Positions 14,174-30,585 of a stretch of DNA of 64,000 bases are shown one piece after another. The DNA lies in NCBI GenBank assembly GCA_002840405.1, contig PHAR01000009.1, positions 211,442 to 275,441 of the forward strand, given 5' to 3'. The notes beneath the pieces were generated by a model. It made no database searches. It was not told the DNA's origin and worked only from the letters and a program-made list of their open reading frames with translations. Position numbers and translations under genes: made by a program. Numbering within the stretch: the first letter of the stretch is position 1; every line of letters starts with the position of its first letter. This stretch comes from Deltaproteobacteria bacterium HGW-Deltaproteobacteria-8. Lineage in GTDB: Bacteria > Desulfobacterota > Desulfovibrionia > Desulfovibrionales > Desulfovibrionaceae.

Positions 14174-14302
14174 TTAAATCATCTCCAAGGGCGGTTCAGT
14201 GCCCAGCTTGCGGATGGGGTCCATTCCCCATTCGCTCTGTGGCGAGATTTAAGCCCGACAACGCCCGTTGTCAATATGAAGCACGAAAATTTTTATAAAG
14301 TT

Positions 14303-14315
14303 TGTGACAATCACA
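14303..14315. promoter_or_regulatory. Perfect palindrome in the divergent control region, candidate repressor operator
   Basis: TGTGA-CAA-TCACA lies between the Ubl gene start (14173) and the XRE gene start (14363). A TTGACA -35-like hexamer follows at 14328-14333 with a weak TAGTTT 17 bases later, just before the XRE gene. The site could let the XRE protein repress both directions. Confidence 0.4.
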
Positions 14316-14362
14316 CGGAAGGTCAGCTTGACACACTTTGGGAATGGAATTAGTTTACAAGA

Positions 14363-14713: not shown

Positions 14714-15240
14714 GTCGAGCGGCCAACAAAGGCAACGCCCAGAAAACGGCGCGCAATCTGCTAGTTCAGTATGGCATCAAAGCTACACCCGTTCCAGTTG
14801 AACGCATTGCGAAATTACTCGGCGTGCGCGTGGAGTATGCGCCGCTTGACGGCGAATTGTCCGGCTTGGCGTGTATTCGAGACGGCGTGCCAATCATTGG
14901 GGTCAACACGCTACACGCACCAAGCCGGCAACGCTTTACAATTGCCCATGAAATTGCGCATATACTGCTTCACAAACATGAACTCGAGCAAGCAGTGCAT
15001 GTTGATCGCGGATCTCTGCGCCGCGACGCCCTTGCTTCGGCGGGCGTTGATGCTACAGAAATTGAAGCCAACGCGTTTGCGGCTGAATTGCTCATGCCGA
15101 CCGACCTCCTTCTGTCTGCGCTTGATGGCCGTTCTGTTGATTATGAAGACGATGAAGCCGTGGCAGCATTGGCAAAGCGCTTCAAGGTGAGCGAGACCGC
15201 CATACGGTTTCGGTTGAACTCGCTTGGAGAGCATTCGTGA
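14710..15240 (+). CDS. ImmA/IrrE-type metallopeptidase (CapP-like)
   Basis: 176 aa. Zinc motif HEIAH in RFTIAHEIAHILLHKHELE, with the third ligand in EIEANAFAAELLMP. The C-terminal segment (EAVAALAKRFKVSETAIRFRL) is a small helical domain typical of the family. It probably cleaves the XRE repressor encoded immediately upstream. In CapP the activator is single-stranded DNA, so this cassette may sense DNA damage or phage replication. Start and stop both overlap neighbours by four bases. Confidence 0.9.
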   Translation: MSRAANKGNAQKTARNLLVQYGIKATPVPVERIAKLLGVRVEYAPLDGELSGLACIRDGVPIIGVNTLHAPSRQRFTIAHEIAHILLHKHELEQAVHVDRGSLRRDALASAGVDATEIEANAFAAELLMPTDLLLSALDGRSVDYEDDEAVAALAKRFKVSETAIRFRLNSLGEHS

Positions 15241-16637
15241 GCTACGTCATTTACGATGTCGAAACCACTGGATTGACGCGGTGTTTCGATCAGATCGTAC
15301 AGTTTGCTGCCGTCCGCACAGATGACGCGTTGAAGGTCACGGATCAGTACCACATCCGCTGTCGACTGATGCCTCACGTTATCCCGTCACCGGAAGCACT
15401 GAATGTGACGGGGCTTCGAATAGAGCAACTCGTCGATCCGTCCTTGCCCTCGCATTTTACGATGGTCACGGAGATTCGCCGCGTATTGGAGTCCTGGTGC
15501 CCGACCCTTTTCCTTGGCTATAACTCTTTATCTTTTGACGAAGAATTCCTGCGTCTAGCTTTCTATCAGTGCTTGCACGGTCCATATTTGACGAATGCAC
15601 CTGGAAACGCGCGGGCTGACGTGCTCAATCTGTGCCGCATAACCGCTGCCCTTCGGCCAGACGTTATCAAACCCGCGACAAACAAGGAAGGGCGCCCGGT
15701 TTTCAAGCTTAAAGCGCTTGCTGAAGCAAACGACATCGTTGTTCCACTGTCACACGACGCAATAGCGGATGTAGCAACGACGCTTGCACTGTGCCAACAC
15801 GTTAGAATGCGTGCGCCTGAAATTTGGTCGCAGTTTCTCCGGTTCAGCAAGAAGGCAAGTGTTGAAGCTTTTATCACTGAGGAAGATGCTTTTCTCGTTT
15901 CGGAAACCTTCGGCAATCACCATCGCGCTCGAGCCGTGACTCGCATTGGCAAGCATAGCGAACAGGCAACAAAGCATTACTGCCTCGATTTAAGCGCAGA
16001 TCTTGAGGCGATTCGAACCATGCCGGACATTGAGCTAATCCTCCTCTGCCAAGGAGACGCTCGGCCAATCGTAACAATCCGCACGAATGCCGCACCGACT
16101 CTATGGGCACTATATGACGCAACGCCAGATCAGATCGCCCCACTCGACGAAACCGAAATCGTGGAGCGGGCGCAACTGATTCGGGAAGATCAGCCCCTTA
16201 TGGAGAGGCTCTGCAAAGTTGCGCAAGCCGCTGAACCCAGTTACCCGCCGTCGCCACACGTTGAGGAACAACTATATGGGCATGCCTTCCCTTCGCCTCA
16301 AGACAAAACGCTCATGCAGGATTTTCACGAGGCTCATTGGGAAAAGCGAGTTGAACTAGCAGGGCGATTTACTGACATGAGATTTCGCCTCCTCGCGGAA
16401 CGACTAATTTATCTCGAAAGACCGGGATTGCTCGAAGAGAACTTGCGGCTGGCTGCTGACGAGGAGCTACGAAACCGCGTCATGGCTCCGATCAGCTCCA
16501 AAGCGCGTTGGCGTTCAATTCCAGCGGCGCAACGTGACTTGGAAGCTTTCATTGAGAAGGATCTTGAGGGTGACCAATTGGCCAACATGGTGGGGTATGG
16601 GGAGCATTTGCGGAGACGCGCAAGCGAATACTCGTAG
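15237..16637 (+). CDS. Exonuclease I (SbcB)-like 3'-5' exonuclease
   Basis: 466 aa. DEDDh motifs: YDVETTGL (Exo I), LGYNSLSFDEEF (Exo II) and HDAIADVATTLAL (Exo III). The rest follows E. coli exonuclease I: HVEEQLYGHAFPSPQDK and FTDMRFRLLAERLIYLERPG match its C-terminal region. It starts with GTG overlapping the protease TGA, so it belongs to the regulatory operon. Exonuclease I degrades single-stranded DNA from 3' ends. In this setting it could be an effector or could remove the ssDNA that activates the protease (inference). Confidence 0.88.
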   Translation: MSYVIYDVETTGLTRCFDQIVQFAAVRTDDALKVTDQYHIRCRLMPHVIPSPEALNVTGLRIEQLVDPSLPSHFTMVTEIRRVLESWCPTLFLGYNSLSFDEEFLRLAFYQCLHGPYLTNAPGNARADVLNLCRITAALRPDVIKPATNKEGRPVFKLKALAEANDIVVPLSHDAIADVATTLALCQHVRMRAPEIWSQFLRFSKKASVEAFITEEDAFLVSETFGNHHRARAVTRIGKHSEQATKHYCLDLSADLEAIRTMPDIELILLCQGDARPIVTIRTNAAPTLWALYDATPDQIAPLDETEIVERAQLIREDQPLMERLCKVAQAAEPSYPPSPHVEEQLYGHAFPSPQDKTLMQDFHEAHWEKRVELAGRFTDMRFRLLAERLIYLERPGLLEENLRLAADEELRNRVMAPISSKARWRSIPAAQRDLEAFIEKDLEGDQLANMVGYGEHLRRRASEYS

Positions 16638-16766
16638 GGGTGCGGCATGGGGAAAGGGCCTGATAATGAAGTGATCAGGGATGATTTCAGGCGGCCTGAG
16701 GACGGCTTGAAAGACCCGGAGCGCTTGGCGAAGTTCCCGAGGACTTTGGAGTTGCGCCTGCTAAAT

Positions 16767-16783
16767 CGGACACCCCGCCAACC
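16767..16783 (+). repeat. 17-bp inverted repeat, left copy
   Basis: cggacaccccgccaacc here is the exact reverse complement of 19496-19512. The pair brackets the HEPN-like gene, an IS3 remnant and the DNase II gene (2,746 bp). It may be an old IS end. Confidence 0.5.
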
Positions 16784-16859
16784 GTCAACTAGAATAGAAA
16801 GCACAACAGCACCCAGTGACGGCAAGGGTGAAGGCTCTCCACGGCAGGTCAGGGGTAAC

Positions 16860-17459
16860 ATGAAGGCTTTCGTTGAATTCGCCTCAAAAGCGCAAAATGA
16901 AATGGACCATTTCGTTTTGTCACTTGAAACTAACCCAAGCAAAATATTACTTATTAATGCCATAATTATGTTTGATGAATTGCTAAGAAACGGCCTTACG
17001 CGAGGCTTTGGCTATAGAAAACGCAAGCTCCCCTACAAATTCGGCGTTCTCCTTTCAACAGCAGAAGTTAGATTTGGAAATCAGTTCAACTTTGAACACT
17101 GGCAACTGTTAAGGAATCTATCAGAAATGCGCAATCATGTTGCGCATAGGAAATCGAGCAATATTCCATTTGGAGCAATTATCCCGAATGTGGTTAAACA
17201 TCGATTCCATGAAGAAATTCTACAAACAAATTTTATGGAAATGCTAATTCCAGAACTTTATGACCTTTGGAAACAGCTTATTACATTAGTATACACACTA
17301 ATTTACGCTAATGTAATGGCTAGAGTTGAACTATCAGAAAGTGAAGCATTCGCAAATGACGCGAAGGCTATTTTTGATTATTTCATTGAGTTGATTAACA
17401 GCCCGGAAGGTAAGGATATCAGGAAACAGCTTGATGAGATAATGCGTCAGCCTAGTTAG
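16860..17459 (+). CDS. HEPN-like protein
   Basis: 199 aa from ATG 16860 (AGGGG upstream). An open frame extends back to 16647, but that part contains an inverted-repeat sequence and has unlike composition, so I prefer the later start. The protein is all-helical by eye and carries EMRNHVAHR, which fits the Rx4-6H signature of HEPN RNase or HEPN-like domains. It is much more AT-rich than its neighbours. Many HEPN proteins are toxins or abortive-infection effectors, while others only mediate association with nucleotides. No obvious antitoxin (MNT) is adjacent. Confidence 0.5.
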   Translation: MKAFVEFASKAQNEMDHFVLSLETNPSKILLINAIIMFDELLRNGLTRGFGYRKRKLPYKFGVLLSTAEVRFGNQFNFEHWQLLRNLSEMRNHVAHRKSSNIPFGAIIPNVVKHRFHEEILQTNFMEMLIPELYDLWKQLITLVYTLIYANVMARVELSESEAFANDAKAIFDYFIELINSPEGKDIRKQLDEIMRQPS

Positions 17460-17687
17460 TAAAGATGGAAACGTCTCCAGTCCTCCCCTAAAACCCCGGA
17501 ATGAGCACCCAAAGGACGAAGAAAGCCTTTCGGCCTCGCCTCGCCCTCTAGTGAGCTGACCTGCCTGCCTGAGGCAAAACCTGAGATAATTCTCACGCCC
17601 AATGGTCCAAGGCTGGGGGCATCTTCACCAACCCGGAGTCTCTACTCCTAGCTGGCCCTAAAACAGGGGGACTTTACACCCCTGACC

Positions 17688-17882
17688 CTACCCCGCCGAG
17701 TATACCACCCGTAAGTTTGGCCTCTGGCCGTTCAGGTTTTCCTCATTCATGGCTCTTGCGAATTCCTCTGGGGCCAATCCGCCAAGTGCGCTGTGGGGCC
17801 GAGCGTGAGCCATAAAGCGCAACAAAAAGACAACCGTTTCGAACGGAGCGCTGAGGGTGAAGTCGTCACTGGAAGTGGTCAT
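17688..17882 (-). pseudogene. IS3-family transposase OrfB, C-terminal remnant
   Basis: 64 codons ending in the typical C terminus of IS3-type integrases (FMAHARPHSALGGLAPEEFA). The DDE catalytic core is missing. Just beyond its stop, the sequence read leftward includes GTGTAAAGTCCCCCTG, which could be an IS end. The rest of 17460-17690 holds nothing I recognise. The remnant's first codon overlaps the DNase II stop, so it may have been fused there by an old deletion. Confidence 0.7.
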
Positions 17883-19159
17883 TGAGTCGGTGCGGTATCC
17901 CCAGAAATCAGCTGCATTATCGAGGCGGAAAGGGCCTTATCCTCAATTACGTAGAACAACCCTCCACGTCCGTTTTGGCTGCTCTTGCAGTTGGGGCCAG
18001 AGAGGGCTCCCTGCTGGTTCATATCCCCAAAGATAGCCAAGGGGTTGCCTCCTGAAGTTGCAACACCGATCTTTGCGTGGTTGAAGTTCGATCCGGGACC
18101 GCCCTTCAAGTTGAACTTGCTTCCTCCCCATTGCCCTGATGTCGCAATGGCAACGGCACCGGGCTTGCCCAGGTAGTCATTCCAACAGTCGATTGACGTT
18201 GTGTCAGTAGTTGATGGGATGGTCGGCCGAGCCCACCATGTTGCCGTGCGGAGGGAAACGCCTCCCAACATGGCCGATATCAGTTGCCACGGGGGAACGT
18301 TCAGATTGGATGGCTTGGAAATTAGGGTTACGCCGCTGCTCAGTTGAACCTTCGTGGTCAATCTCCCGGTGGTTTTCTTTCCAAGTTTGGAAACCAGGGA
18401 TTGTATCTCCTGCGGACCACCGTTTTTTACGATTTGAGCGTTAGACGGGTTGGTGACCACGCTGGCATTGATTAGAGCGTTCAAAACCTGAACAACATCA
18501 TCTTTGTTCAGCCTTAAGGCGAAAAAGTGTTGGCTAACCAAAACGTTGTCATCTTTGATGCAGCCCAGAGTATTTCCGTCGCTGACCCTCGGATTGGCTT
18601 TGCTTCCGGAACCCGGCCAGGATGGAGTTGTTACCTGCATCACAAGCCCTTCACCGGATTCGTTCCAGGCAAGCAGGCCCTTTGAGTGTCCCCAGGGGCT
18701 ACTACAGCTATCGGTACAACCTTTGATGGGGGGATCGCCATAAAACTGATCATTCCAGACGACGTAGCTGATTTTACTGCCATAGACCTCGTCGAAGGTA
18801 GCCCCCACGGGATCAGCCAGGGTATCGCCGACGCATCCCTTGCCCTGCTTCAAAGTGGGACTTTCGTTGCTAGCGTAGAGGTATTGCTGCCCATAGGTGT
18901 AATTCTGGATTTCCCCGCCAAAAATACAGGCTCTCGTGTCTCTCTCCGTCCCGCATCCCGGAAATACTTTGGCATTGAGCTTAAAAACGAACCACCAGTC
19001 TACCGGGTGCCCCTTTTCCACTAGAGGGGCAATCAACGTGCTGTTGTGAGCTCGGGCTACACCACTCGCATTCTGCCATACGCCGGACACCACCAAAAAG
19101 AACGTCATGATGCCAAACACCGCGAAACGGCGTATACCCTTCCAGCTCTTGGTATTCAT
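17879..19159 (-). CDS. Secreted DNase II-family nuclease
   Basis: 426 aa. ATG 19159 has GGAGG seven bases upstream; the open frame reaches 19399, but those 80 codons are not protein-like. Residues 1-38 are a signal peptide (basic MNTKSWKGIRR, then FAVFGIMTFFLVV). DNase II landmarks are PVDWWFVFKLN, QQYLYASNESP, WGHSKGLLAW (H158, K160) and NFNHAKIGVA (H361, K363). These two HxK motifs form the phospholipase-D-like active site of the family. DNase II is metal-independent, acts on double-stranded DNA at acid pH in animals, and is uncommon in bacteria. Export implies periplasmic or extracellular DNA cleavage. Confidence 0.88.
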   Translation of the reverse strand: MNTKSWKGIRRFAVFGIMTFFLVVSGVWQNASGVARAHNSTLIAPLVEKGHPVDWWFVFKLNAKVFPGCGTERDTRACIFGGEIQNYTYGQQYLYASNESPTLKQGKGCVGDTLADPVGATFDEVYGSKISYVVWNDQFYGDPPIKGCTDSCSSPWGHSKGLLAWNESGEGLVMQVTTPSWPGSGSKANPRVSDGNTLGCIKDDNVLVSQHFFALRLNKDDVVQVLNALINASVVTNPSNAQIVKNGGPQEIQSLVSKLGKKTTGRLTTKVQLSSGVTLISKPSNLNVPPWQLISAMLGGVSLRTATWWARPTIPSTTDTTSIDCWNDYLGKPGAVAIATSGQWGGSKFNLKGGPGSNFNHAKIGVATSGGNPLAIFGDMNQQGALSGPNCKSSQNGRGGLFYVIEDKALSASIMQLISGDTAPTQ

Positions 19160-19672
19160 GATATTGCCTCCAAAGTTATATTCCAAAGGATAAACTGTGG
19201 CCAAAGAGGCTGGTGCGATCCAAGTACCCCGTGGCCTGGGTGGCTCTAGATACAAGCTTATACACCATGCCACATCCAGAGAGCAAATGGCAATTGGCCT
19301 GCCCCACCCTAAACCTGAGCCAGAGATTCTGTTAGTCTCTGAGCCATGGAGGGAACGGATATGGCTGGAAAAACAGGCACCAGAGCAGATAATCGCCAAA
19401 CTTCGTAAAAGGGAAAGTGACCTTCCCCGTCTAGTACCCCGTCACCGCCTCACTGGCTGGACAGGTCTTGAGATAGGGCTAGATCTATCTCCTATGGTTG
19501 GCGGGGTGTCCGGTCGAAACGGGGGCTACTCCACACTCCCGACCTCCCTGAGTTGTCGAGGCATCTGCTTTTGTCATGTTCAACGTTGCAAAACGCAGGC
19601 GCATATCGTATTGGCAGCATAAATATCGTACGCGGAATGCCCCGCGACTGAAGCACTAATTGGAGGTAAGAC
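19160..19672. other. Gene-free stretch with IS debris upstream of DNase II
   Basis: The stretch contains the DNase II leader and, on the plus strand near 19371-19420, codons for APEQIIAKLRKRE, which resembles the start of IS3-type OrfA proteins (EQII..L). It also contains the right copy of a 17-bp inverted repeat at 19496-19512. No intact gene is seen. Confidence 0.4.
19496..19512 (-). repeat. 17-bp inverted repeat, right copy
   Basis: ggttggcggggtgtccg is the exact reverse complement of 16767-16783. No matching direct duplication is evident outside the pair. Confidence 0.5.
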
Positions 19673-19984
19673 ATGGGTGGGTCAGGACCAAATGCGTATC
19701 CCCCAGGCTCCGCGAGTGACTGTGAAGACATTCGGTTCAAGGCTTCTGTGAATTCGCCTCAACCGGAAGCCCTTGACGATCTCGAAGTCGGGGATGTGCT
19801 CACTATCAGTGCGACAGACGACGAAGAAGGTATTATCGTTTGGAACGATGATGAGGAAGTCGGCACTTTGACTGGCACAATGGTGGCCAAGATGCTCAAC
19901 TGTATGCAGTCTGAATATATCTTCCAAGCTACTGTCCTCGAGATATCTGAGGGCTATTGCCTGGTTCAGGTTGAATTAGCATGA
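19673..19984 (+). CDS. Small Gly-Gly-starting acidic protein of the QueC cassette
   Basis: 103 aa, with GGAGG seven bases before ATG. It begins MGGSGPNAYPPGSASDC, a flexible Gly/Pro/Ser leader. A compact region follows, rich in beta strands by eye (ALDDLEVGDVLTISATD, EVGTLTGTMVAKMLNCM, YIFQATVLEISEGYCLVQVE). I do not recognise a named family. Its stop overlaps the start of the PfkB-NDT gene (ATGA), so it is the first gene of a three-gene rightward operon. After Met removal the N terminus would be Gly-Gly, which may matter because QueC-like enzymes in type IV CBASS are reported to modify protein N termini. That link is inference. Confidence 0.75.
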   Translation: MGGSGPNAYPPGSASDCEDIRFKASVNSPQPEALDDLEVGDVLTISATDDEEGIIVWNDDEEVGTLTGTMVAKMLNCMQSEYIFQATVLEISEGYCLVQVELA

Positions 19985-21216
19985 ACAAAATAATAACTGT
20001 AGTTGGCGGCTCGTATATTGAAGAGTGCTGTTTCCCTGAATTCACCATCTCACGCGGAAGTGGTGTACGTGCAGCATGCATACTCAATGGTCTTCGTGAC
20101 ATAGTTGAGCTGAACACCGTCCTTGGTCCTCGGTCAAGGTCCAGATTTCAGAAGATCACCGCCAAAAAAGGCATCACCCTTCACGCTCGTGAAGGCACAG
20201 CCGACATCTGGTTTCGCTACCGCCACCCCCTCGCCAAGCCAACTATATTCCAAGCGAATCTGTCCGTTGCGCAGAAACATCATATCTCAACTAAAGATGC
20301 TCTCGTATTCGGGATGATTGAAGGGCGTCCGCAGGTGACCGCAAACCGAGTCGTATACGACCCTCAAGACGGGCACAGATCAAAGCCCTTCGATTTCAAC
20401 GAATCGACCGCGAAGGAACTGGCCATCGTAGCGTCATTATCCGAAGCGCAGGCGATCACCGGTGAAAGAAACACTGCGGATGCCGCGACCAAATTGCTCT
20501 CAAGTCCTTCCTGTGTAGCTGTTGTCATCAAATGCGGCCCTCAAGGGGCGCTGGTTGCTACGCCCACTTCACAACGATGGGTTTTTGCTTTTCCATCAGA
20601 GAACGTGTGGAAGATTGGCTCGGGTGACGTATTCTCAGCAGCATATGCCCATGCCTGGCTGGCAGAGGGGAAAGATCCGTTAGAGTCAGCATGGTTTGCG
20701 TCGCGGATGGTCACCGCCTATGTCAATTCAAGGCAAGAGGCATTCACGCCCGAAGAGATGGGCCGGATACGGGCGGAGGCCGCAACCGCAGTTCTACACA
20801 AAACGATGCCTGCAGCGCGCGAAATCCCAAAGGGACAAATATACCTCGCGGGGCCTTTTTTTACGACTGCTCAGCAGTGGCTTATTGATGAAGCACGCTC
20901 TGCGTTTCTCGATATGGGGTTCAGGGTGTTCTCGCCCGTCCATCATGTCGGGAGAGGAGGGGCAAATGAGGTGGCACCTGCAGATCTCATCGGGTTGGAC
21001 GACAGCTCTCTAGTTTTCGCAATACTAGATGGGCTGGACTCGGGAACGATCTTTGAGGTTGGCTATGCCCGAGCCAAAGGAATTCCCGTAGTCGGCGTTG
21101 CTGAAGCGTGTGATGACAATGCGTTAACAATGCTGCACGGGTCAGGGTGTCTTATAACACACGATTTCACCACGGGTATTTATACAGCGTGCTGGAAACT
21201 GATGAACGATGTCTGA
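19981..21216 (+). CDS. PfkB-family kinase fused to nucleoside 2-deoxyribosyltransferase
   Basis: 411 aa. Residues 1 to about 265 have a ribokinase/PfkB fold with the anion-hole motif GSGD (213-216) holding the catalytic Asp and KCGPQGALV before it. Residues about 286-411 are a nucleoside 2-deoxyribosyltransferase domain: IYLAGPFF, RVFSPVHHVGRG, and DGLDSGTIFEVGYA (350-363) with the nucleophile Glu359. Together the domains could attach a free base to 2-deoxyribose and phosphorylate a nucleoside. Its start overlaps the small protein gene and its end overlaps the QueC-like gene by eight bases, consistent with one pathway. Confidence 0.87.
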   Translation: MNKIITVVGGSYIEECCFPEFTISRGSGVRAACILNGLRDIVELNTVLGPRSRSRFQKITAKKGITLHAREGTADIWFRYRHPLAKPTIFQANLSVAQKHHISTKDALVFGMIEGRPQVTANRVVYDPQDGHRSKPFDFNESTAKELAIVASLSEAQAITGERNTADAATKLLSSPSCVAVVIKCGPQGALVATPTSQRWVFAFPSENVWKIGSGDVFSAAYAHAWLAEGKDPLESAWFASRMVTAYVNSRQEAFTPEEMGRIRAEAATAVLHKTMPAAREIPKGQIYLAGPFFTTAQQWLIDEARSAFLDMGFRVFSPVHHVGRGGANEVAPADLIGLDDSSLVFAILDGLDSGTIFEVGYARAKGIPVVGVAEACDDNALTMLHGSGCLITHDFTTGIYTACWKLMNDV

Positions 21217-21802
21217 ACTCTTATTGCTTTCTGGCGGGATTGACTCAATCTGTCTTGCGGCTTGGCGTCGACCAGCATGTTGTCTTACAATCGATTATGG
21301 GCAACGTCCAGCTAAAGCTGAGTTTACAGCTTCCACTCAGGTATGCAGAGCGCTCGGGTTAAAACATGAGACCCTCAATGTGCCCATCGGACATCTCGGC
21401 GGTGGAGTTATGGCGGGTTCGCTTCCCATTGCCGCTTCCCCTCATATTGAATTCTGGCCATTCCGCAATCAATTCCTCATCACGCTCGGCGCCATGTATG
21501 CGCTACGCTTTGGCTATGCCAAAGTTCTCATAGGAACAGTGCTTTCAGATCGGCGTCACGCCGATGGTCATCCAGAATTTGTGAAGGGCATCGCTGAGGT
21601 CATTCGCGCACAGGAAGGGATGGTCGAAGTGGAGGCCCCCGCGTTGAACTACGGAACAGCCGAACTCATTAGATTGTCCAGCGTCACGCCAAATGTGCTT
21701 GGATGGGCACATTCATGCCATACCGGAGTTCTGGCGTGTGGACACTGCCCCGGTTGCAACAAGCACTCAAAAACAATGGGGGAAATCGGCTGGAACCGCT
21801 AA
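21209..21802 (+). CDS. QueC-like 7-cyano-7-deazaguanine synthase homologue
   Basis: 197 aa, slightly shorter than housekeeping QueC. The PP-loop LLLLSGGIDS is at the N terminus, TIDYGQRPAKAE follows, and the C-terminal zinc site CHTGVLACGHCPGC is complete. QueC converts carboxy-deazaguanine to preQ0 with ATP and ammonia. QueC-like enzymes also occur in antiphage systems (QatC; Cap9 of type IV CBASS). No queD, queE or tgt gene is nearby, so a housekeeping queuosine role is less likely. The stop abuts the convergent glycosylase stop with no base between. Confidence 0.85.
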   Translation: MSELLLLSGGIDSICLAAWRRPACCLTIDYGQRPAKAEFTASTQVCRALGLKHETLNVPIGHLGGGVMAGSLPIAASPHIEFWPFRNQFLITLGAMYALRFGYAKVLIGTVLSDRRHADGHPEFVKGIAEVIRAQEGMVEVEAPALNYGTAELIRLSSVTPNVLGWAHSCHTGVLACGHCPGCNKHSKTMGEIGWNR

Positions 21803-22636
21803 TTAAACCTCCAGGCGACATTGTTGCGGTGTCGGCTCGCCACTAGCACTCTTTTTGCGATTCGCTTGCGGAATCCGTAATCTACCCAGCGCGCGGATCG
21901 GGAGTTGGCCGGCATCACGCATTCCATCCCAAATAAGGCAGTCCAATACAGCTGGGCGTAAGCCCATCGCCTGGCAAAAGAGTAAAAAGCGTGCTTCCAT
22001 ACCGCAATAGTCCTTCTCGACGCGGTCGCTGTCTTTAAACAGTCCGCATAGCTTGCCCGCCCTGATTAAGTGGATGTCGAGGATTGCGACATCATCGCAA
22101 TCTAAAACGTTGCGTGCGACCCAACTGGCAGTCTTGTACCCGACACCTGGCATACCGAGCAGTTGGTCTCGAAGCCCCAAGCCACTGTCCAGGCGAAGCG
22201 GCTCCTGGCGAACAATCCTCATGGCCGATGCGAGATACTTTGATTTCTGATTCGGATATCGGTAACGCAAATGACGGCCACCAACCACGAGCGGCGCGTT
22301 CAAGACTGATACCCAGGCTTCTTGGCGCGTCTCTCTTGCTGCAACAAGACCAGCGCCCCCACACCGCTCATACGCAGCGGTAGCCATTTCAGCTGTGATA
22401 CCATAACCGCCGAGCAAACAAAACACCAACTCCTCGACCACTCCGTCGCGAGCGCGGTAACAACTCGACGGTTTCGTGTCTAATTCCGCCATCCAAGCTT
22501 GAGCCAGCCAGTAGGCTGGTGTGAACAGATGCCAAGGGTCTCCCCATTTCATACCGGGCAGAATCTGTTCTTCAGGGCAAGGCATGGCTCTTTCAACAAG
22601 CTTCTCGCCAATGACGAGGCTGACCATTCTATTCAT
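21803..22636 (-). CDS. OGG-like HhH-GPD DNA glycosylase
   Basis: 277 aa from ATG 22636, which overlaps the methylase TGA (ATGA) and has GGAGG upstream; an earlier in-frame start at 22666 is less likely. The helix-hairpin-helix GMPGVGYKTASWVARNV has the catalytic Lys, and the acid Asp lies in DVAILDIHLIRAG, as in 8-oxoguanine glycosylase/lyases. The family excises damaged or modified purines. OGG-like proteins (Cap11) accompany QueC-like proteins in type IV CBASS, which supports a functional link to the convergent QueC gene. Confidence 0.82.
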   Translation of the reverse strand: MNRMVSLVIGEKLVERAMPCPEEQILPGMKWGDPWHLFTPAYWLAQAWMAELDTKPSSCYRARDGVVEELVFCLLGGYGITAEMATAAYERCGGAGLVAARETRQEAWVSVLNAPLVVGGRHLRYRYPNQKSKYLASAMRIVRQEPLRLDSGLGLRDQLLGMPGVGYKTASWVARNVLDCDDVAILDIHLIRAGKLCGLFKDSDRVEKDYCGMEARFLLFCQAMGLRPAVLDCLIWDGMRDAGQLPIRALGRLRIPQANRKKSASGEPTPQQCRLEV

Positions 22637-23301
22637 TCCGATCCTCCAAGCTTCGCCCGCAACCACTCCAACAAGCCAAACTGTTCCGGGAGGGACAACT
22701 CCGAAACCCGTCGTTGTAACCGTGTCGTACGGCGTCTGATGATCTCTCGCTGACGATATCCATCACCGAGATGCCATGCATCGTGCAGTTGTTGAGAAGG
22801 CTCGAAATTGAGCCAGACACATTCCTCACGCATTCCGGTATGCGTCATTGCGGCGAACGAAACTCGCCTCCAACTGTGAAGCACTTCGGCGTACAATGGG
22901 TTATTGTAGCCGGACACCATGACCATGCACTTTTCCCGCTTCAGGCATTCCAACAGCCTGATATGATCCGCATCCGTGTAGTCATGCCTGTAGACGCGCT
23001 CCCGGCGGCGTGTAGCCCGGACATAAGGAGGGTCGGCGTAAATCAAGGCCGACTGTTCAAGTGATGCTTGTTCAAGCCACCCCACAGCGTCACAACAAAC
23101 GAGTTCACACGGTTGGTTGGGTGCCTCAGCCCAGCGCCTGAAGACCGTAGGATCGATTTCGATGCCGACTTGACGTGCAGCAGGACGCTTGTTGCGCATC
23201 ACAGCTCCGCCGCCAAGATGCGTCTCCACATAGGTCGTGTGCGGGGGCATCAGGTTAAGTAACCGTGGATAGGTGCGGCCCTTGCCGCCTGCGTATGCCA
23301 T
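22633..23301 (-). CDS. D12-class (Dam-like) DNA adenine N6-methyltransferase
   Basis: 222 aa. It starts MAYAGGKGRTYPRLLNLMP, the SAM-binding motif of D12-class enzymes. THLGGGAV and the catalytic DPPY (ALIYADPPYVRATRR) follow. VSGYNNPLYAEVL and CVWLNFEP complete the core. It methylates adenine in an unknown short site. No restriction endonuclease gene is adjacent; the next gene is the OGG-like glycosylase, overlapping by four bases. The protein is on the short side for the family and has a basic C-terminal helix. Confidence 0.87.
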   Translation of the reverse strand: MAYAGGKGRTYPRLLNLMPPHTTYVETHLGGGAVMRNKRPAARQVGIEIDPTVFRRWAEAPNQPCELVCCDAVGWLEQASLEQSALIYADPPYVRATRRRERVYRHDYTDADHIRLLECLKREKCMVMVSGYNNPLYAEVLHSWRRVSFAAMTHTGMREECVWLNFEPSQQLHDAWHLGDGYRQREIIRRRTTRLQRRVSELSLPEQFGLLEWLRAKLGGSE

Positions 23302-23819
23302 GCGATTAGCATCGCCAGAAATGGCGAGGATGTCAATGTCGTCTACGCACTTCTAAACATCTTTATGCGGTCCTAGAAAAGGGGACTTTGCAATCGGGCA
23401 ACCAGATTTGCGCGACTGATATGCCGCCCTTACGGGCGGCGGGGGCCACACCCCCAAGAACTGGAAAAAAACAGGCGCCCAGGCGATGGTAAACCATTGC
23501 GGCTCTAGCTAATCAACTGGAAAAGAAACTGGAAAAAATGCGGCCTGTGAGGGTCAAGAGTGAGGGCGCACGGCAAAAAATAGTGCCGTTTTTCTAGGAT
23601 GTTATCCAGCACTCAGAAAACAGCCGCCCCGCCCCCTACCGGGGGCTATCGTCGCTGCGTTCCGCAGACAAAAAGCCAGGTCGTGACGAATTTCGCGCCA
23701 GGACGCCCCCAGGAGCGTTTTGGCTTCCAGGGACCCAAAGGACCGAGAGGCCGAGAAGCGCGCGCTCCGGCCCTCCTGGGGCTCCTGGTGAAGTGTTTCA
23801 GAGGGGTTGGGCTAGAGGA
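23302..23819. other. Gene-free spacer with hairpins and a short direct repeat
   Basis: No credible gene is seen. It contains a perfect 7-bp stem GCCGCCC-TTAC-GGGCGGC (23423-23440), three copies of ACTGGAAAA (23460-23468, 23516-23524, 23528-23536), and a plus-strand terminator-like hairpin ACGGCA...TGCCGT followed by five T (23570-23593). It separates the cassette methylase from the end of the transposition operon. A small RNA or regulatory leader is possible but not shown. Confidence 0.4.
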
Positions 23820-24020
23820 CTATTTGCCAAGAGCCTTGAACTTGGCAAGCGCCTCGTCAGAAGTGCAGCCAGCCCGGAACAATGCGCGCAAAAGGGCCTG
23901 GTCTTCCGCAGGGACAGGCTGACCTTCAAGGCGGTTAGTGTGAAACCCCTGCTCAAGACGCCACAAGCGTTCCGCGATGGTTGCCCCTTCTACAACCGTG
24001 TTGAGCGGTGGAAGAGGCAT
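23820..24020 (-). CDS. Small ORF, last gene of the transposition operon
   Basis: 66 aa, not recognised. The start ATG shares one base with the preceding stop (TAATG), so it is translationally coupled. Its C-terminal half, NRLEGQPVPAEDQALLRALF then RAGCTSDEALAKF, resembles the C-terminal half of the preceding 118-aa protein (LEGQ, a Pro, LR-x3-R-x-G, a helix), suggesting an old duplication. A role in target choice or regulation of transposition is possible but unproven. Confidence 0.6.
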   Translation of the reverse strand: MPLPPLNTVVEGATIAERLWRLEQGFHTNRLEGQPVPAEDQALLRALFRAGCTSDEALAKFKALGK

Positions 24021-24376
24021 TAGGGCAACCGCTCCGTGTAGTAGGCGATAATCCGCTCAATGCACGCACGTCGAGACAGCCCGGACCGGACCATACCCCG
24101 GAGAGTTTCCAAGCGGTCGTTGACGATCAGCGGCACACCGTGTTGCCCTTCCAGTAGTGCCAGGCGGTTCTCGACGGCCTCCAGGACCGCCAAGTCCTTT
24201 ACGGGGTTCGGGGTGTCATAGGGTTTGTAAGGCACATTTGACTTGCTGGGGGGAATGATGAACGGGTCTGCCTCCTCGGCGGCGGCAGTGGCGGCATTTC
24301 TGATCTTCTGCGCCGGGGTCGGGTTTTCGATGGCGTCAACAATGGCGCAGTACGTCGAAAACACGCTGTCGCTCAT
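24020..24376 (-). CDS. Small ORF coupled to the TniE-like gene
   Basis: 118 aa, not recognised. The start overlaps the TniE-like stop by four bases. The N-terminal helix (FSTYCAIVDAIENPTPAQKI) is followed by an Ala/Glu-rich linker and a proline-rich segment. The C-terminal part contains ALLEGQHGVPLIVNDRLETL then RGMVRSGLSRRACIERI, similar in pattern to the 66-aa product of the next gene. Position makes it a transposon backbone gene rather than cargo. Confidence 0.65.
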   Translation of the reverse strand: MSDSVFSTYCAIVDAIENPTPAQKIRNAATAAAEEADPFIIPPSKSNVPYKPYDTPNPVKDLAVLEAVENRLALLEGQHGVPLIVNDRLETLRGMVRSGLSRRACIERIIAYYTERLP

Positions 24377-25872
24377 GCCGAATCCTCACGAATAGAACGG
24401 GTTGGGGTCGAACTGCCCGGCCTTTCCGATAATAGGTCTACCCTTGGAACCCAATACTTTTCACCATTCAAGGTCACCGTGTAGCCCCCATCTTGATGAA
24501 TTGAAATCTGTTCCTCCGACAGGTTTTTCCCAGCATTCACTGACAGACCATGGAAATAGGCTAGTGATATCGATAGCCACCGCCGATTATTTGTCTTATC
24601 ATCAGTGCCGACCCTCATCAACTTAAGCATTTTTGCTTCCAGCTGTTGGATTCGGTTCCGCCTCGCTTTCTCCGCGTCAAATTTCGGCAAGGCGATCTCA
24701 GTCGCCATCACTTCCCGAAGATATCGCACAAAGCCAGACACAGCAGCCCGCTGCCCCGGCGCTATCTCCAGATACGCAGCCAGTGCTCTTTGGTCTGGCG
24801 GCATGACTTCAATCTCCTTGGCTTTAAGCAGCAAGGCGGCGGCAGGCGACAACGCTAACCGTATCGAACGAAGGGTCGTTTCACCCTTCAGGAGGTTTCC
24901 TTGCAACGACTTGTGATAGCCATCCAAAATCGCCCTCTCCGGCGATACCGCTGGAAATATATTCAGGGTGTTTGCGATCCTTCGCTTTTCAGACTCTTCT
25001 TCCTTCGCTCCGACACGCACGAAGATAAGGCCTGCTGCCTCCATCCAGCGCATAGCCAGCAAGACTCGGCGAAGACGCTGTGTCCCGAAATGCCTAAGCA
25101 GCTCGTCATAACTAGGTATATTTCCCCACTGGTGCCCAATCTCTACGAAAAATGGCAAGTAGCGATGTATAGCCAAGGCGGCTTTGTGTCCGCCAACTTT
25201 CCCGCCTAACCAATGGCCAAAAGCCTCGAAGCTCTGTGCCAACCCCGGCGTCGAGAATGCCGAGGAATCCATTTGGATACGCTTTTCAAGCAATCCGCTC
25301 CAGTAGCAATTCTGACATTGCTTTCCATATCCTGCAGGCATTGGCGCTTTGCACTTCGGGCAAGGGATCTCACCTTTCTCCAAGCAAGGCTGACAGAGCA
25401 TGCGACCATCCGGGGCCCTCTGTAGACGACGGTGACGGTGACATGCTCCACATGTGCTCCGATCAGATCGGGAGCACCTTGGGCAAGCTCGGTGCTCAAG
25501 GCCTTGACGAAGGGAGCGGGTAAGCTTTGTTGATGGCTGACCACAAATATCGCACGGTTCCGGGTCTGCGAAATATGGGGTGCACGCCTTACACGCGGGG
25601 CCATATGGCGTTAATTTTCCAATATTAAAACCTGTCTTTCCGCACCGAGCACACGGCTTGTCACGCTGACACTTTCGACAAACGGCTTTGAGGTCATCCT
25701 TCGGTAACCGTGCGAAGTTTCCGCACCTCGGGCAGAGTCGGCGTTTGAAGATACGGGCGTAGCACGTCGCGCAATACCTATGCCCTTTGAGAACACGTGA
25801 GAATTTTGCAACGATCTTACCGCATTCGTCGCATTCAAGTTTCGCTTCGGGTGTGCTCTTCAAATCATTCAT
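24373..25872 (-). CDS. Zinc-finger TniE-like transposition protein
   Basis: 499 aa. The first 195 residues hold about ten CxxC pairs (CDECGK, CPRCG, CARCG, CDICG, CGACH, CPKCK and others), i.e. a chain of zinc ribbons. The remaining 300 residues are mostly helical and basic without a motif I know. Position directly after tniQ, with ATGA overlap, matches tniE of the Tn6022/AbaR comM elements, where a protein outside the classic Tn7 set is reported to be needed for transposition. I infer that it helps TniQ recognise the comM site. Confidence 0.6.
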   Translation of the reverse strand: MNDLKSTPEAKLECDECGKIVAKFSRVLKGHRYCATCYARIFKRRLCPRCGNFARLPKDDLKAVCRKCQRDKPCARCGKTGFNIGKLTPYGPACKACTPYFADPEPCDICGQPSTKLTRSLRQGLEHRACPRCSRSDRSTCGACHRHRRLQRAPDGRMLCQPCLEKGEIPCPKCKAPMPAGYGKQCQNCYWSGLLEKRIQMDSSAFSTPGLAQSFEAFGHWLGGKVGGHKAALAIHRYLPFFVEIGHQWGNIPSYDELLRHFGTQRLRRVLLAMRWMEAAGLIFVRVGAKEEESEKRRIANTLNIFPAVSPERAILDGYHKSLQGNLLKGETTLRSIRLALSPAAALLLKAKEIEVMPPDQRALAAYLEIAPGQRAAVSGFVRYLREVMATEIALPKFDAEKARRNRIQQLEAKMLKLMRVGTDDKTNNRRWLSISLAYFHGLSVNAGKNLSEEQISIHQDGGYTVTLNGEKYWVPRVDLLSERPGSSTPTRSIREDSA

Positions 25873-26999
25873 CGTAGTACCATCTCCATCCTACGTTCGA
25901 GCCTCGCCATCATCCGCAACACCTCATGCCGTGGCCGTGGAGAGGTCGCGCCTGGCGCTGAACGCCTTTTCCGCGACACGAGCTTGTTCGGCAAGGATTC
26001 CGCAAATTCTGCAATCAGAGCCGGAACGGGCTCACCTTTGCCGCACAACCCTTGGCGGGTGATGCCTGAGCCCTTCAACGCTCTCTGAAAGCTGCCTTTA
26101 TCTGCAGCGAGGAAGTACCACGTTGCTTCAAAAATTCCTTGCCGGTCGTGGACGCGCAGGAGTTCGAGGCCTGCGCCAGCCATCGTTGGCATGGTTTGCG
26201 GTATTGATGCCCCCATGCGGTCGATTAGGCTCATGAGTCCAGTTGTGCCACTCCGGCTAGCTCGCCTAATCAGAGACACGAAAAAATCTGCCACTCCGAG
26301 CCACGCTGCCGCTTTCACAGGCCTCCCGAACATTTGCCCCCGCTGTTCGTGCACGACGCGATCTACTTCACGCTGGAAGGTCAGCGCGCTAACCAGACAC
26401 CCCTCAGGTACTGAATCCCGGAGATCAGCTTTGCAGGTAGGGCATATGGCAACATGAATTGCGTCCGCCCTGAGGCGGTGTGGCTCGATAGGGGCGGCAC
26501 AATTCCAACACCTATCTGCCAGGGCGCAGTTATGCCACTCGCATCCGGTCTGCCATGCAAAGCGCCAATGGAGCCGAAAATATGGGATGGTGTCGGTAGA
26601 AAGACACATTGGGCAGTATTGCTGACCGCTCCTGCGCTTTGTGTTCCGCGCCCCAAGCGCCAAAATCCATGGCCAAATCGCCTTATTAGAAGGCAAACCA
26701 CCCTGGATACAGCTTGCGACGGCCTGGAGCGTTCCTGCCTGAAAGTGTCTCGTTGAGATGCCGGAGACAAGGGCAAGTTGGCTCAACCGATTTTCAGCAA
26801 TGGCGCGGTCAGTGTCTCGAGTCCAGGCCCTCCACTTGGGCCAAAATACTCCAGTCAGCGCTAAGGGGTCGCATCCCTGCGCAAGCGCGGCCCGGACGAG
26901 CCATGAGGAGAGGATCTCGTCTGGGAGCACCGAAACGGGAATGGCCCAGAGAGGAGCTACGCAACAAGCTCCCGGATGCCACGAGTAGGCCGCAACCAT
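25869..26999 (-). CDS. tniQ: TniQ/TnsD-family target-selection protein
   Basis: 376 aa from ATG 26999; the open frame reaches 27065, giving 398 aa, and either start overlaps the end of tnsC. N-terminal TniQ pattern WAIPVSVLPDEILSSWLVRA, a zinc finger YCPMCLSTDTIPYFRLHWRF then CEWHNCALADRCWNCAAPIE, and a second pair ICPTCKADL. A C-terminal DNA-binding region is basic. TniQ/TnsD proteins bind the attachment DNA and recruit TnsC. This should be the comM-specific targeting factor together with the TniE-like protein. Confidence 0.88.
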   Translation of the reverse strand: MVAAYSWHPGACCVAPLWAIPVSVLPDEILSSWLVRAALAQGCDPLALTGVFWPKWRAWTRDTDRAIAENRLSQLALVSGISTRHFQAGTLQAVASCIQGGLPSNKAIWPWILALGARNTKRRSGQQYCPMCLSTDTIPYFRLHWRFAWQTGCEWHNCALADRCWNCAAPIEPHRLRADAIHVAICPTCKADLRDSVPEGCLVSALTFQREVDRVVHEQRGQMFGRPVKAAAWLGVADFFVSLIRRASRSGTTGLMSLIDRMGASIPQTMPTMAGAGLELLRVHDRQGIFEATWYFLAADKGSFQRALKGSGITRQGLCGKGEPVPALIAEFAESLPNKLVSRKRRSAPGATSPRPRHEVLRMMARLERRMEMVLR

Positions 27000-27853
27000 G
27001 CTTTGCTCTCGATGACCGTCTTGTCGATCTGTTCCTTGCCCGTCTTGATCGTCTCGGTTGCACATTCCACCAACAGCCGGTGTAAGTTGCCTATATTGCC
27101 TTCTGAAATCGTGTACAGCTGGGCTGCAAGCTCGGGCTGATATAGCCGTGATGGCATCTTCAAAGGCAATATTGTCTCGAACCCTGCCAAGAGCCGTTGA
27201 AAATCCTCATTTAGCTCCCATAACGGAAGAGCCATCACGTCAAACCTACTCGCATGCTGCGGGTCTGTATGCAGAACGCGCACGGCCTCACGCGTGCCAA
27301 CCCCCACGATGGGTATCGCAAGCTCGTTGCAAAGCAATTTTAATGCATTCATGACTTCCCGTTGCTTGATGGGAGAGCCCGTTAGCAGGGAATGGAACTC
27401 GTCGATAATCAAGACACGTGTATGGCACATACGCAGCAAATGGATAACTTGGTACCTAAGTTTCGAGACCGGGTCGCTCGCCCGGTAAGGAGTGAAGAAC
27501 CGTTCCAGAATGGAAATAAGCAGCCCTTTTTCATCAGCGCTCGGTGGTGCTTCGGCGAGGATGACAGGCTTCACAGGCTCGGAGTCCTCATTGACATAGC
27601 CCTGACCGCACAGTTCACGGAAACGGCGGATGATGGTCGTCTTGCCATTATTGGAATCGCCTACAACCAAGAGGTTCGGCATCCTCGGTCGCTGAGGTTT
27701 GTGCATCAACCCTTGGAGGGTGTCCATGATCTGCTGTGCGGCCTTGTAGTTAATCCACCGTGGCTGATCCATGAACTCGATCCGAGCTTTGTCCGGTAAC
27801 CCCATAATGTGCCGGAAGTCTGGGTGAATGTGCTCATAGCTGGAGATACTCAT
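26957..27853 (-). CDS. tnsC: TnsC/TniB-type AAA+ ATPase regulator of transposition
   Basis: 298 aa, the short TniB-like size rather than the 555 aa of Tn7 TnsC. Walker A GDSNNGKT (about residues 64-71), Walker B VLIIDEFHSLL and sensor IVGVGTREAV are clear. TnsC forms ATP-dependent filaments on target DNA, bridging TniQ to the TnsAB transposase and giving target immunity. ATG overlaps the tnsB stop (ATGA). Confidence 0.92.
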   Translation of the reverse strand: MSISSYEHIHPDFRHIMGLPDKARIEFMDQPRWINYKAAQQIMDTLQGLMHKPQRPRMPNLLVVGDSNNGKTTIIRRFRELCGQGYVNEDSEPVKPVILAEAPPSADEKGLLISILERFFTPYRASDPVSKLRYQVIHLLRMCHTRVLIIDEFHSLLTGSPIKQREVMNALKLLCNELAIPIVGVGTREAVRVLHTDPQHASRFDVMALPLWELNEDFQRLLAGFETILPLKMPSRLYQPELAAQLYTISEGNIGNLHRLLVECATETIKTGKEQIDKTVIESKAWLRPTRGIRELVA

Positions 27854-29781
27854 GCGATTTCTCCGAAAGGCTTGATGTCTCCATCAACCAGGCCGGACGC
27901 CTGGACCAACGCTGGTCCGGGTGCCCTAGACTGCCGACCCGGCATGGGGTCGGCTGGTGATACCCTCTTCTCGTGTTCTTTGCGACGCTGAGCAAGGCGG
28001 CGGGCTTTCTTGGTATTCTCTTTAGTCTTTTCTACTTCGCTTCGTAGCTCCGTAATCGTCTGAAGGAGTTGGTACTCATTGACGCTGTCTTTTCCTGCTC
28101 GTTTGAGGACTTCACGAGCCTGCCGATATTCCCAAACACTCATTGGCGGTAAGGATTGATCGGCGAATGGCACCTTGTAGTATTGGTTCAACGCTGGATC
28201 GGAGAACCAGACGACACTTATATCCCTCGGATCGCGTCGAAAGATAAACTTGCGTTTTTCACCCTTCGCATTTGGAGCTTCAGCGTTGATCCAAGGGCGC
28301 AACGCTTCAGCATAGTAGGTCATACCCTCAATGGTTACGCCAAAGGCTTGCACAGTGCGCCTATAAGCAGGAAGGAAGTCCAATAGAATGCTAAAACGGT
28401 CAGCTGGGCGAGGTGGAATTCCGATACCCTGAACTTCGGAGTTGCCGAAGATACCAATTTCCCACTTCCTCAGCGGAGACATGCCGAGACTAGAGTGCAT
28501 GCTCTGGTGGTAGACCTTGCAAATAAAGGTCACCAGCCATGCCTCGAACTCCCCCTTGGTCATAGTCGCATATTTCTCCGGATCATACTCGTCCTTCTCC
28601 TTAATTGACGAGAAGGTTGTACCCGGAAGGTCGTGAATTTCATTGAGCAGCGTGCCCAACATTCGCTCTATGTGCCCACCATAACGGGGCTGCTTAACCG
28701 GCCTGAACTCTAGGTGAATGCCATGCATCAGACACGACTGCTGGAAGGTGTTCGAGCGAAAATCAGCGCCGTTATCGACATGAATAGTTTTAGGAAGACC
28801 CCATACTGGCCACTGGGCATCCACTTTATGCAACAGGAGCCATTCGTCTTTTGGTAGGACCGAATGGGCGACGCACATTGCCACCGACGTTTCCGAGGGA
28901 GGGTCGAAAGACAGATAGTAACCTGTCACCATGCGAGTATTAACGTCCATCGCCAGCGTGATCCAAGGACGCCCAATGGGCCGCCGACACACATCATCCA
29001 CCAAAATGATATCGGCAGGCGTATGGTCAATCTGCACCACCGCCAGTGGATAATCGGCATTAGGAAAGCTGCCTGCAGCTGGCAGGAATTTGTTCTTTGC
29101 CTTTTCTTTAAAACCTCGCCCACGAAGTCTCTGCTTCTCAGAGACTTTGCTCAAACGCGCCCTGATCGTGCTCGCACTGGGTGCCTCAATCCCGCGAAGC
29201 TGGCAGCGGCGAAACACTTCCGTGACAGCCTTCTGCGCCGTTGGGCGCTGGGGCGTTAGGTAGAAATCTTCAATGACTTGCCGAATGACGTCCTCGGCAA
29301 ACGCTGGAATCCTGGTATTGCCCGGTTTCCATCCGCGCTTCTTCGGGATGAGCGCCGAAACCACGCCATATGCTTTGTACCGGCCAAGCCACCGGTAGAG
29401 GGTGGCTGTATCGATGCCCACCTCTTTGGCGCGATGCATAACAGCAGACCTGCCGAGCATCATTTCATTGACCAGTGGCCTGATCGCAGCAAACCGTTGC
29501 TCGGCAATCCTCCAGTCTTCGTCTGCAATGTCGGCCAAGTCTTTACCGGAGTCAGAAGATGCCAAGACGGCCTGATTCATCGGACGCAAATCACCGATGC
29601 GAAGGGGGCTACTACGGCCACTCTCAACCTCAACGCCAATGACAGACTCGAAATCCAGGACCTGCGAAATGCGATAGACTGCACTACCATGGCAAACAAG
29701 GCGCCCCACTTGAACATCGACCCGCTGACGAGTCGGCTCAAATGCTTCGTCGGTGAGCCGGAAGTCTTCATGTTCATTCAT
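27850..29781 (-). CDS. tnsB: TnsB/TniA-type DDE transposase
   Basis: 643 aa. An N-terminal DNA-binding HTH region (IDTATLYRWLGRYKAYG) is followed by a retroviral-integrase-type DDE core: Asp252 (VVQIDHTPADI), Asp336 (IHVDNGADF) and Glu372 (YGGHIERMLG). A beta-barrel and a Lys/Arg-rich C-terminal tail complete it. TnsB binds the repeats at the element ends and does strand transfer at 3' ends. All catalytic residues are present. It overlaps tnsA by eight bases. Confidence 0.95.
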   Translation of the reverse strand: MNEHEDFRLTDEAFEPTRQRVDVQVGRLVCHGSAVYRISQVLDFESVIGVEVESGRSSPLRIGDLRPMNQAVLASSDSGKDLADIADEDWRIAEQRFAAIRPLVNEMMLGRSAVMHRAKEVGIDTATLYRWLGRYKAYGVVSALIPKKRGWKPGNTRIPAFAEDVIRQVIEDFYLTPQRPTAQKAVTEVFRRCQLRGIEAPSASTIRARLSKVSEKQRLRGRGFKEKAKNKFLPAAGSFPNADYPLAVVQIDHTPADIILVDDVCRRPIGRPWITLAMDVNTRMVTGYYLSFDPPSETSVAMCVAHSVLPKDEWLLLHKVDAQWPVWGLPKTIHVDNGADFRSNTFQQSCLMHGIHLEFRPVKQPRYGGHIERMLGTLLNEIHDLPGTTFSSIKEKDEYDPEKYATMTKGEFEAWLVTFICKVYHQSMHSSLGMSPLRKWEIGIFGNSEVQGIGIPPRPADRFSILLDFLPAYRRTVQAFGVTIEGMTYYAEALRPWINAEAPNAKGEKRKFIFRRDPRDISVVWFSDPALNQYYKVPFADQSLPPMSVWEYRQAREVLKRAGKDSVNEYQLLQTITELRSEVEKTKENTKKARRLAQRRKEHEKRVSPADPMPGRQSRAPGPALVQASGLVDGDIKPFGEIA

Positions 29782-30522: not shown

Positions 30523-30585
30523 ACAAAATCGCGCGAAGCGTTGCGCCTCAACAGGCTGTTTTCGCATATATTTTAACATATGACA

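Follow-up and report, generated by a model that had tools for sequence, protein, structure and literature searches.

A transposon-borne QueC-like and PfkB-deoxyribosyltransferase cassette as a candidate third system of N-terminal nucleobase conjugation

Genes of the cassette and their conservation

The five-gene cassette described here lies in a window of 64,000 nucleotides, the whole stretch of DNA that was analysed, from Deltaproteobacteria bacterium HGW-Deltaproteobacteria-8 (Desulfovibrionaceae; GenBank assembly GCA_002840405.1, contig PHAR01000009.1, positions 211,442 to 275,441 of the forward strand), and we discuss it as a candidate system for joining a nucleobase to the N-terminus of a protein. 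A small protein, a fusion of a PfkB kinase with a nucleoside 2-deoxyribosyltransferase (NDT) and a QueC-like enzyme are encoded on one strand and face an OGG-like glycosylase and a Dam methylase (Table 1). Using the list of open reading frames (ORFs) and the sequence, we confirmed all five ORFs exactly as the original prediction had described them, with an overlap of 4 bases between the small-protein and PfkB-NDT genes, one of 8 bases between the PfkB-NDT and QueC-like genes, and no base between the QueC-like stop and that of the convergent OGG-like ORF, which ends at 21803; the Pfam families agree as well (within the fusion, PfkB at 5.1e-9 and Nuc_deoxyrib_tr at 1.1e-16). From the sequence, OGG more likely starts at the in-frame ATG at 22636 than at the GTG at 22666; the former shares the 4 bases ATGA with the Dam stop.

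Table 1. Features of the cassette and of the transposon around it (positions in the window)
Feature	Position	Strand	Remarks
Shine-Dalgarno sequence GGAGGT	19662..19667	+	5 bases ahead of the small-protein ATG (sequence, start scan)
Small protein, 103 amino acids, N-terminus MGGSG, HIRAN-like domain	19673..19984	+	proposed conjugation substrate; no Pfam family
PfkB kinase-NDT fusion, 411 amino acids	19981..21216	+	Pfam PF00294, PF05014
QueC-like enzyme, 197 amino acids, Cluster 4 type	21209..21802	+	PF06508 2e-24
OGG-like helix-hairpin-helix (HhH) glycosylase/apurinic-apyrimidinic (AP) lyase	21803..22636	-	PF22175 (Ogg-HhH) 4e-13
D12-class adenine methylase (Dam)	22633..23301	-	optional partner; PF02086 (MethyltransfD12) 2.7e-9
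Tn7-like transposon carrying the cassette, ~21.3 kb, in comM/yifB	9320..30585		ends placed by eye
5-bp target-site duplication GCGGG	9315-9319 and 30586-30590		flanks of the Tn7-like insertion
TniQ, TnsC/TniB, TnsB and TnsA genes	25869..30526	-	
604-amino-acid protein	9419-11233	+	transposon left end
BilABCD set	11358-14173	-	
Helix-turn-helix (HTH), ImmA/IrrE-type and exonuclease genes	14363-16637	+	
DNase II family gene	17879-19399	-	

Using an alignment of the PfkB-NDT fusion, we scanned the GTDB contigs and collected 246 relatives, the best 80 of which are the basis of the counts given below. These loci were chosen by the PfkB-NDT gene alone, their neighbours being taken from -4 to +7 kb by our own gene calling and grouped into BLAST clusters. 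Collapsing loci with PfkB-NDT identity of at least 90% leaves 71 (L005 and L022 have identical profile scores and look like one locus), and 73 of 80 viral loci (L103-L175), whose matches cover the NDT end only, were left out of the analysis. The genes proposed as a unit from the window are neighbours in other genomes as well: the small-protein gene ends -7 to 29 bases from the PfkB-NDT gene in 80/80 loci (71/71 collapsed), a QueC-like gene is present in 79/80 (70/71; in the remaining locus, L051, the contig ends) and an OGG gene lies nearby in 66/80 (59/71), convergent downstream in 35 of the 66 and codirectional upstream in 31. With the small protein beside PfkB-NDT in all 80 loci, a chance neighbourhood was rejected. 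Less frequent neighbours are an HTH gene (23/80; 21/71), Dam (19/80; 17/71) and an HD/dGTPase-type gene (13/80; 11/71), and a nitroreductase-like fourth gene of about 230 amino acids, here called X4, occurs in 56/80 loci (48/71). The five-gene set is a conserved multi-gene cassette in which OGG is near-core and Dam frequent but optional; the membership first proposed thus stands for OGG but not strictly for Dam, and it lacks X4, which neither the window nor the relatives nearest to it possess.

Six of the 13 X4 members scanned match Pfam Nitroreductase at 0.01, and the pattern R..PSaG..Hp / wRDaGal is common to 63 aligned members. Among the 35 relatives with a convergent OGG gene, 27 have X4 in the intervening space. 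The exact tail-to-tail contact of stops is a feature of the window itself: with both stop codons taken off the genes, the window has a gap of 6 bases, and L016-L018, L020 and L021, which are close relatives, have gaps of 2-17.

According to record titles, the relatives span several bacterial phyla; PfkB-NDT relatives are also carried by 38 of 72,556 plasmid records, haloarchaeal plasmids among them, and by IMG/VR contigs. In L074, L082, L088 and L098, at about 9750-12450, QueC is directly followed by another pair of small-protein and PfkB-NDT genes, then by a gene with an FRG domain (PF08867, from a scan of L074) and one for ~110-125 amino acids; these genes form a duplicated arm that likely has an effector of its own.

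The small protein and its counterparts beside other QueC genes

The original prediction had listed the 103-amino-acid protein without a role; it carries the N-terminal motif of a QueC-conjugation substrate and a predicted HIRAN-like fold. Its N-terminus, MGGSG, stands behind a strong ribosome site (GGAGGT). Using a start rule blind to the motif, by which the strongest Shine-Dalgarno match picks the start, we found M[SG]G[SG] in 55/79 small proteins and in 1/489 other ORFs (Fisher p = 4e-56, which is no true probability as the sequences are related), and the same rule applied to the partner genes gave 3/79 QueC-like and 1/80 PfkB-NDT proteins. At the first ATG the motif occurs in 48/80 small proteins and 2/489 other ORFs of 85-250 amino acids, and at any in-frame start in 64/80 and 4/489 respectively; a looser motif is present at some start of 73/80. 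The 16 small proteins without the strict motif at any start include those of L074, L078, L086 and L088; those of L020 and L096 start with MGGSGGGFS. The first residues are followed by a tail rich in Gly, Ser and Pro, 15-53 residues long up to an invariant Cys, and conservation along it peaks at residues 2-4, the remainder being variable (a profile biased by starts picked by motif).

A model predicted from 65 sequences has a predicted local distance difference test (pLDDT) score of 87.6, and of 58 over the first ten residues. Searched with Foldseek, this model matched 3k2y (E from 6.8e-4, template modelling (TM) score 0.67-0.69) and human HLTF HIRAN, including several DNA complexes (E 4e-3 to 3e-2, probability 1.0, TM 0.63-0.65). 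We use "HIRAN-like" as a statement about the predicted fold only: unlike the HLTF HIRAN proteins, whose fold it would share, the cassette domain has no sequence match to them, stands alone after a tail and is a putative DNA binder. HIRAN domains are also found in other bacterial defence-linked clusters (available text of PMC11706625). In the haloarchaeal locus L012 (3369-4004), the small protein has, by eye, two tandem C...G...C domains behind one MGGGG start.

Protein deazaguanylation is described for type IV of the cyclic oligonucleotide-based anti-phage signalling system (CBASS), where the QueC enzyme Cap9 joins 7-carboxy-7-deazaguanine (CDG) to Gly2 of the CD-NTase at the motif MGGS, and is suspected in Qat (qatABCD), where QatB has the motif MGTS with an essential Gly2 and a tail modelled in the QatC active site (available text of PMC13279940; for CBASS see also the available text of PMC11996544). 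Among our loci, two are of the type IV CBASS kind: the CD-NTase of L176 (annotated as a CBASS cyclase) starts with MGGSGGGFF and that of L178, which shares 41% identity with it across 281 residues, with MGGGGGKSSG. In the stretches read of these two loci we saw no OGG, a component which we take to be Cap11 in type IV CBASS. A search of the viral contigs found no Cap10, and a Cap9 search of the same contigs gave one locus, which was not used.

Three distant PfkB-NDT loci (L013, L014 and L102), in which no HIRAN-like protein was found, encode a TIR protein right after QueC (Pfam ThsB_TIR in the two scanned), and all three TIR proteins have similar starts, MGGGGGG, MGGGSSG and, via an internal Met, MGGSST. 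In addition, these loci have an OGG gene and a relative of Cap10, a TIR-TGT gene, which in L013 matches Pfam TGT (1.7e-9), the PDB Cap10 structure 9ntn (1.1e-5) and the PADLOC TGT model (9.6e-21), which in L014 was found by tblastn, split over two ORFs, and in L102 by BLAST clustering. As one operon brings together PfkB-NDT, OGG and a Cap10-like enzyme with a QueC that has an MGG protein next to it, we regard it as a bridge between the cassette and type IV CBASS.

The start M[SG]G[SG] and its Gly-rich tail could be a mere flexible linker, or the substrate of another modification, with the QueC-like enzyme acting elsewhere. The Gly, Ser and Pro of the tails and the greater frequency of Ser2 than Gly2 would suit this reading, which we nevertheless hold to be improbable, given the conservation peak at residues 2-4 of an otherwise variable tail (the bias of the picked starts being kept in mind) and the similar starts seen where a CD-NTase or TIR protein is encoded next to, or not far from, a QueC-like gene.

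The enzymes and the setting of the cassette

Judging from their residues, all cassette enzymes look active. The residue counts were made without short or split genes (aligned were the PfkB-NDT of 98/99 loci and 96/99 QueC genes), and the counts for PfkB-NDT, with most of those for QueC, exclude the TIR-branch loci. The PfkB GxGD Asp (Asp216 in the window) and the NDT Glu (Glu359) are kept in 95/95 aligned proteins, one split gene also being left out, the OGG Lys and Asp (Lys178 and Asp197 in the window, numbered from the GTG at 22666) in 79/79 and the Dam DPPY in 24/24; the Glu is the nucleophile of NDT, and the OGG Lys and Asp are of the catalytic type. The window QueC-like protein has the motifs SGGxDS, YGQ and RN, HxDG in place of YxDC, and four Zn-type cysteines, its C-terminus reading CHTGVLACGHCPGCNK. 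Across the 93 QueC-like proteins aligned, SGGxD, RN, YGQ and the four Cys are kept in 92-93, and all 93 have the Asp that corresponds to D117 of Cap9, the residue that reads the guanine edge there; the acid used is probably guanine-like, though not certainly CDG.

The protein combines a PF06508 match, the signature CH(x)5CxxCxGCxK with YGQ...E and a PfkB-NDT neighbour, all marks of the PF06508 "Cluster 4", in which the pairing of QueC with PfkB-NDT, at about 89%, has been published (available text of PMC13329287). By motif and neighbour it is of the same QueC subfamily; the signature is present in 87/96 aligned relatives, with the YGQ pattern allowed 5-6 residues before Glu, where PMC13329287 gives 6 in its available text and the window has 5. 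In an unrooted tree, 29 QueC-like enzymes stand behind one branch (100/99), apart from 16 canonical QueC and two Cap9. A sister relation of Cluster 4 and Cap9, expected from the shared GSG(D/E)LxG, is unsupported, Cluster 4 standing alone (100/99); Cap9 grouped with the TIR-branch QueC (91/69, in an unrooted tree with two Cap9 rows, one of them long-branched).

The original prediction did not recognise the combination as any named system. Among the five cassette proteins PADLOC matches only the QueC-like enzyme (55.9 bits with the QueC model, which gives two Cap9 231 and 228) and the methylase, each singly, but the QueC and PfkB-NDT pair is already in print. The terms HIRAN, MGGS, glycosylase and nitroreductase are absent from the main text of PMC13329287, and a search of open-access papers (a coverage outside which most preprints lie) found nothing on the gene combination beyond that paper.

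The ordinary substrate class of each enzyme suggests a free antimetabolite, in which the QueC-like enzyme would make a modified deazapurine, NDT would convert it to a deoxynucleoside and PfkB to a nucleotide poisoning phage replication, while OGG (and Dam) would clean or mark host DNA and the small protein would be a DNA-end sensor. The NDT and PfkB residues kept in 95/95 would agree with this, a repair role would fit the separate transcription of OGG and its presence in 66/80 loci, and HD/dGTPase-type genes lie near 13/80. It leaves unexplained the M[SG]G[SG] start of the small protein and the similar start of the TIR protein beside QueC, and we think it rather unlikely.

The transposon (Table 1) has a GC content of ~0.53 against 0.66 outside, and a search for inverted repeats gave nothing readable as its ends. 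The cassettes of L064 and L067, both from Methylomonas, are closely preceded by a yifB-like gene, and transposon genes of the same BLAST clusters are found near those of L007 and L029, so that related transposons may spread the cassette. We compared 120 genes flanking the relatives, randomly drawn from 298 eligible, with 120 of 157 control genes from 17 arbitrary host-genome stretches: at 1e-10 the flanking genes matched 222 PADLOC families and the controls 29 (families being counted, not genes), and among the flanking matches listed are dGTPase, Gabija, a DISARM protein, PARIS, DRT and restriction genes. By guilt by association, an anti-phage role is probable. The prediction of a defence system holds as regards a conserved cassette among defence genes, but its product is likely a modified protein and not a free deazaguanine, because the small protein has the N-terminal motif of a conjugation substrate and a HIRAN-like fold.

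The available text of PMC13329287 interprets the PfkB-NDT of Cluster 4 as a purine-salvage enzyme, and the cassette could accordingly be a metabolic operon for purine or deazapurine salvage with no immune role, as that annotation and the pairing of about 89% would suggest. Such an operon sits poorly with the Tn7-like element, plasmids, IMG/VR contigs and defence genes among which the cassette is found, with a near-core OGG, and with the presence next to PfkB-NDT, in all kept loci, of a small protein that does not look like an enzyme and whose N-terminus is mostly of the conjugation type; we consider it very improbable. The cassette is also not the host's queuosine pathway, since a canonical set of QueC, QueE and QueD lies within ~2 kb on a different contig of the host. 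A complete queuosine/preQ0 pathway was rejected for the cassette, whose QueC-like enzyme lacks the canonical YPDC motif and has no queD or queE neighbour.

The same transposon carries further cargo. A BilABCD set (bacterial ISG15-like) is matched by PADLOC at 3e-39 (BilA), 3e-44 (BilB), 1e-60 (BilC) and 1e-126 (BilD). It is followed by an HTH gene (weak CapH) and an ImmA/IrrE-type gene (CapP), and directly behind these lies a DEDD/SbcB-like exonuclease gene, which the DRT-associated SbcB model hits at 1.9e-102; the ORFs scanned contain no reverse transcriptase, and these genes are possibly a separate module switched by DNA damage. The DNase II family gene (9.4e-20) has an ORF whose N-terminus looks over-extended, and the protein at the left end has no Pfam or PADLOC match.

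Nucleobase conjugation as the proposed function

We hold with moderate confidence that the cassette is a third QueC-based system of N-terminal nucleobase conjugation, after type IV CBASS and, probably, Qat, and that it places a deazaguanine-type acid on the small protein. As in other QueC-family conjugation systems, its QueC enzyme has a partner with an N-terminal Gly/Ser motif on a flexible tail. Like type IV CBASS, it has a QueC-family enzyme in an operon with a protein of MGGS/MGGG start and a base-exchange-type partner enzyme (TGT there, NDT here), and its QueC keeps the SGGxDS, Zn-type Cys and base-reading Asp of Cap9. By contrast, its proposed substrate is HIRAN-like, the NDT is fused to a kinase, a nitroreductase-like gene is usually present (56/80), and its QueC has HxDG for YxDC and a separate place in the tree. 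With qatABCD it would share a QueC-family enzyme and a non-CD-NTase partner with an N-terminal Gly motif (MGTS in QatB) on a flexible tail; unlike there, the QueC is without the QatC extensions and keeps the Asp that QatC has changed, Thr/Thr standing at the Y115/D117 places of Cap9, and the partner does not resemble the alpha-helical QatB (available text of PMC13279940).

The absence of CD-NTase, TGT, QatA and TatD, which had been noted from the sequence, was borne out in the ORFs scanned: no CD-NTase was seen in the transposon (small ORFs at 23820-24376 lying outside the scan), no Cap10 TGT in the window, a Cap10-like TIR-TGT being found only in distant L013, L014 and L102, and no QatA ATPase or QatD TatD. 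Type IV CBASS proper was rejected as no CD-NTase or TGT was seen and His takes the place of the Cap9 Tyr, and Qat as no QatA or QatD was seen and the QueC is short (197 amino acids, HxDG).

In the proposed mechanism, the initiator Met of the small protein would first be removed and its flexible tail would reach the active site of the QueC-like enzyme, which would activate a CDG-like acid with ATP and join it to the N-terminal amine, that of Gly2 in the window and mostly of Ser2 in relatives. PfkB-NDT would take the place of the TGT-like Cap10, as a base-exchange enzyme that binds the conjugated base; NDT would probably add (deoxy)ribose to this base and the kinase domain phosphorylate it, giving a protein-linked nucleotide. 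During phage infection the HIRAN-like domain might direct the modified protein to ends of DNA or to DNA that is damaged, and the OGG-like lyase might act on base-carrying DNA or guard the host genome. By analogy with base-exchange enzymes, one form of this idea has NDT and PfkB build a nucleotide on the QueC-joined base of a HIRAN-like DNA-end binder, the resulting handle on the protein being either inserted into phage DNA or recognised at it, where OGG would act; this form seems to us doubtful.

Several observations weigh against conjugation as proposed. Concerning the substrate, 24/79 small proteins are without the strict motif under the motif-blind rule and 7/80 without any start bearing even the loose one, position 2 is mostly Ser in relatives and Gly in the window, Cap9 having been shown on Gly, and the HIRAN-like domain is matched by Pfam HIRAN in none of 65 members and by no PDB HIRAN sequence. 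As regards the QueC-like enzymes, in the tree they make up a group of their own, apart from Cap9, and the place of the base-stacking Tyr115 of Cap9 is taken by His in 86/93, for which reason the acid may differ from CDG. An action of NDT or PfkB on a protein-bound base would be a parallel drawn from the TGT and NDT base-exchange families; the TIR-branch loci (two of three aligned) seem to have a degenerate NDT half, so that NDT chemistry would not be needed there, and single loci have split genes (PfkB-NDT in L090, QueC in L071). Finally, CDG supply may not be universal among hosts: of 44 host genomes tested (of 80 loci), 32 have a canonical QueC above a cut-off of >180 bits, and the other 12 divide into 7 with matches to both QueD and QueE and 5 that show no convincing QueE, the QueE models also missing or only weakly matching some hosts that have QueC.

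If conjugation of the small protein is true, this third system would be taxonomically wide and would have another substrate protein, a fusion of base-exchange enzyme and kinase, and a near-core DNA glycosylase. The role of the "Cluster 4" QueC would become a question for a mass-spectrometry test on a small substrate of ~100 amino acids, and nucleobase-to-protein conjugation would be a general immune chemistry with swappable substrates, namely CD-NTase, QatB, TIR and HIRAN-like proteins.

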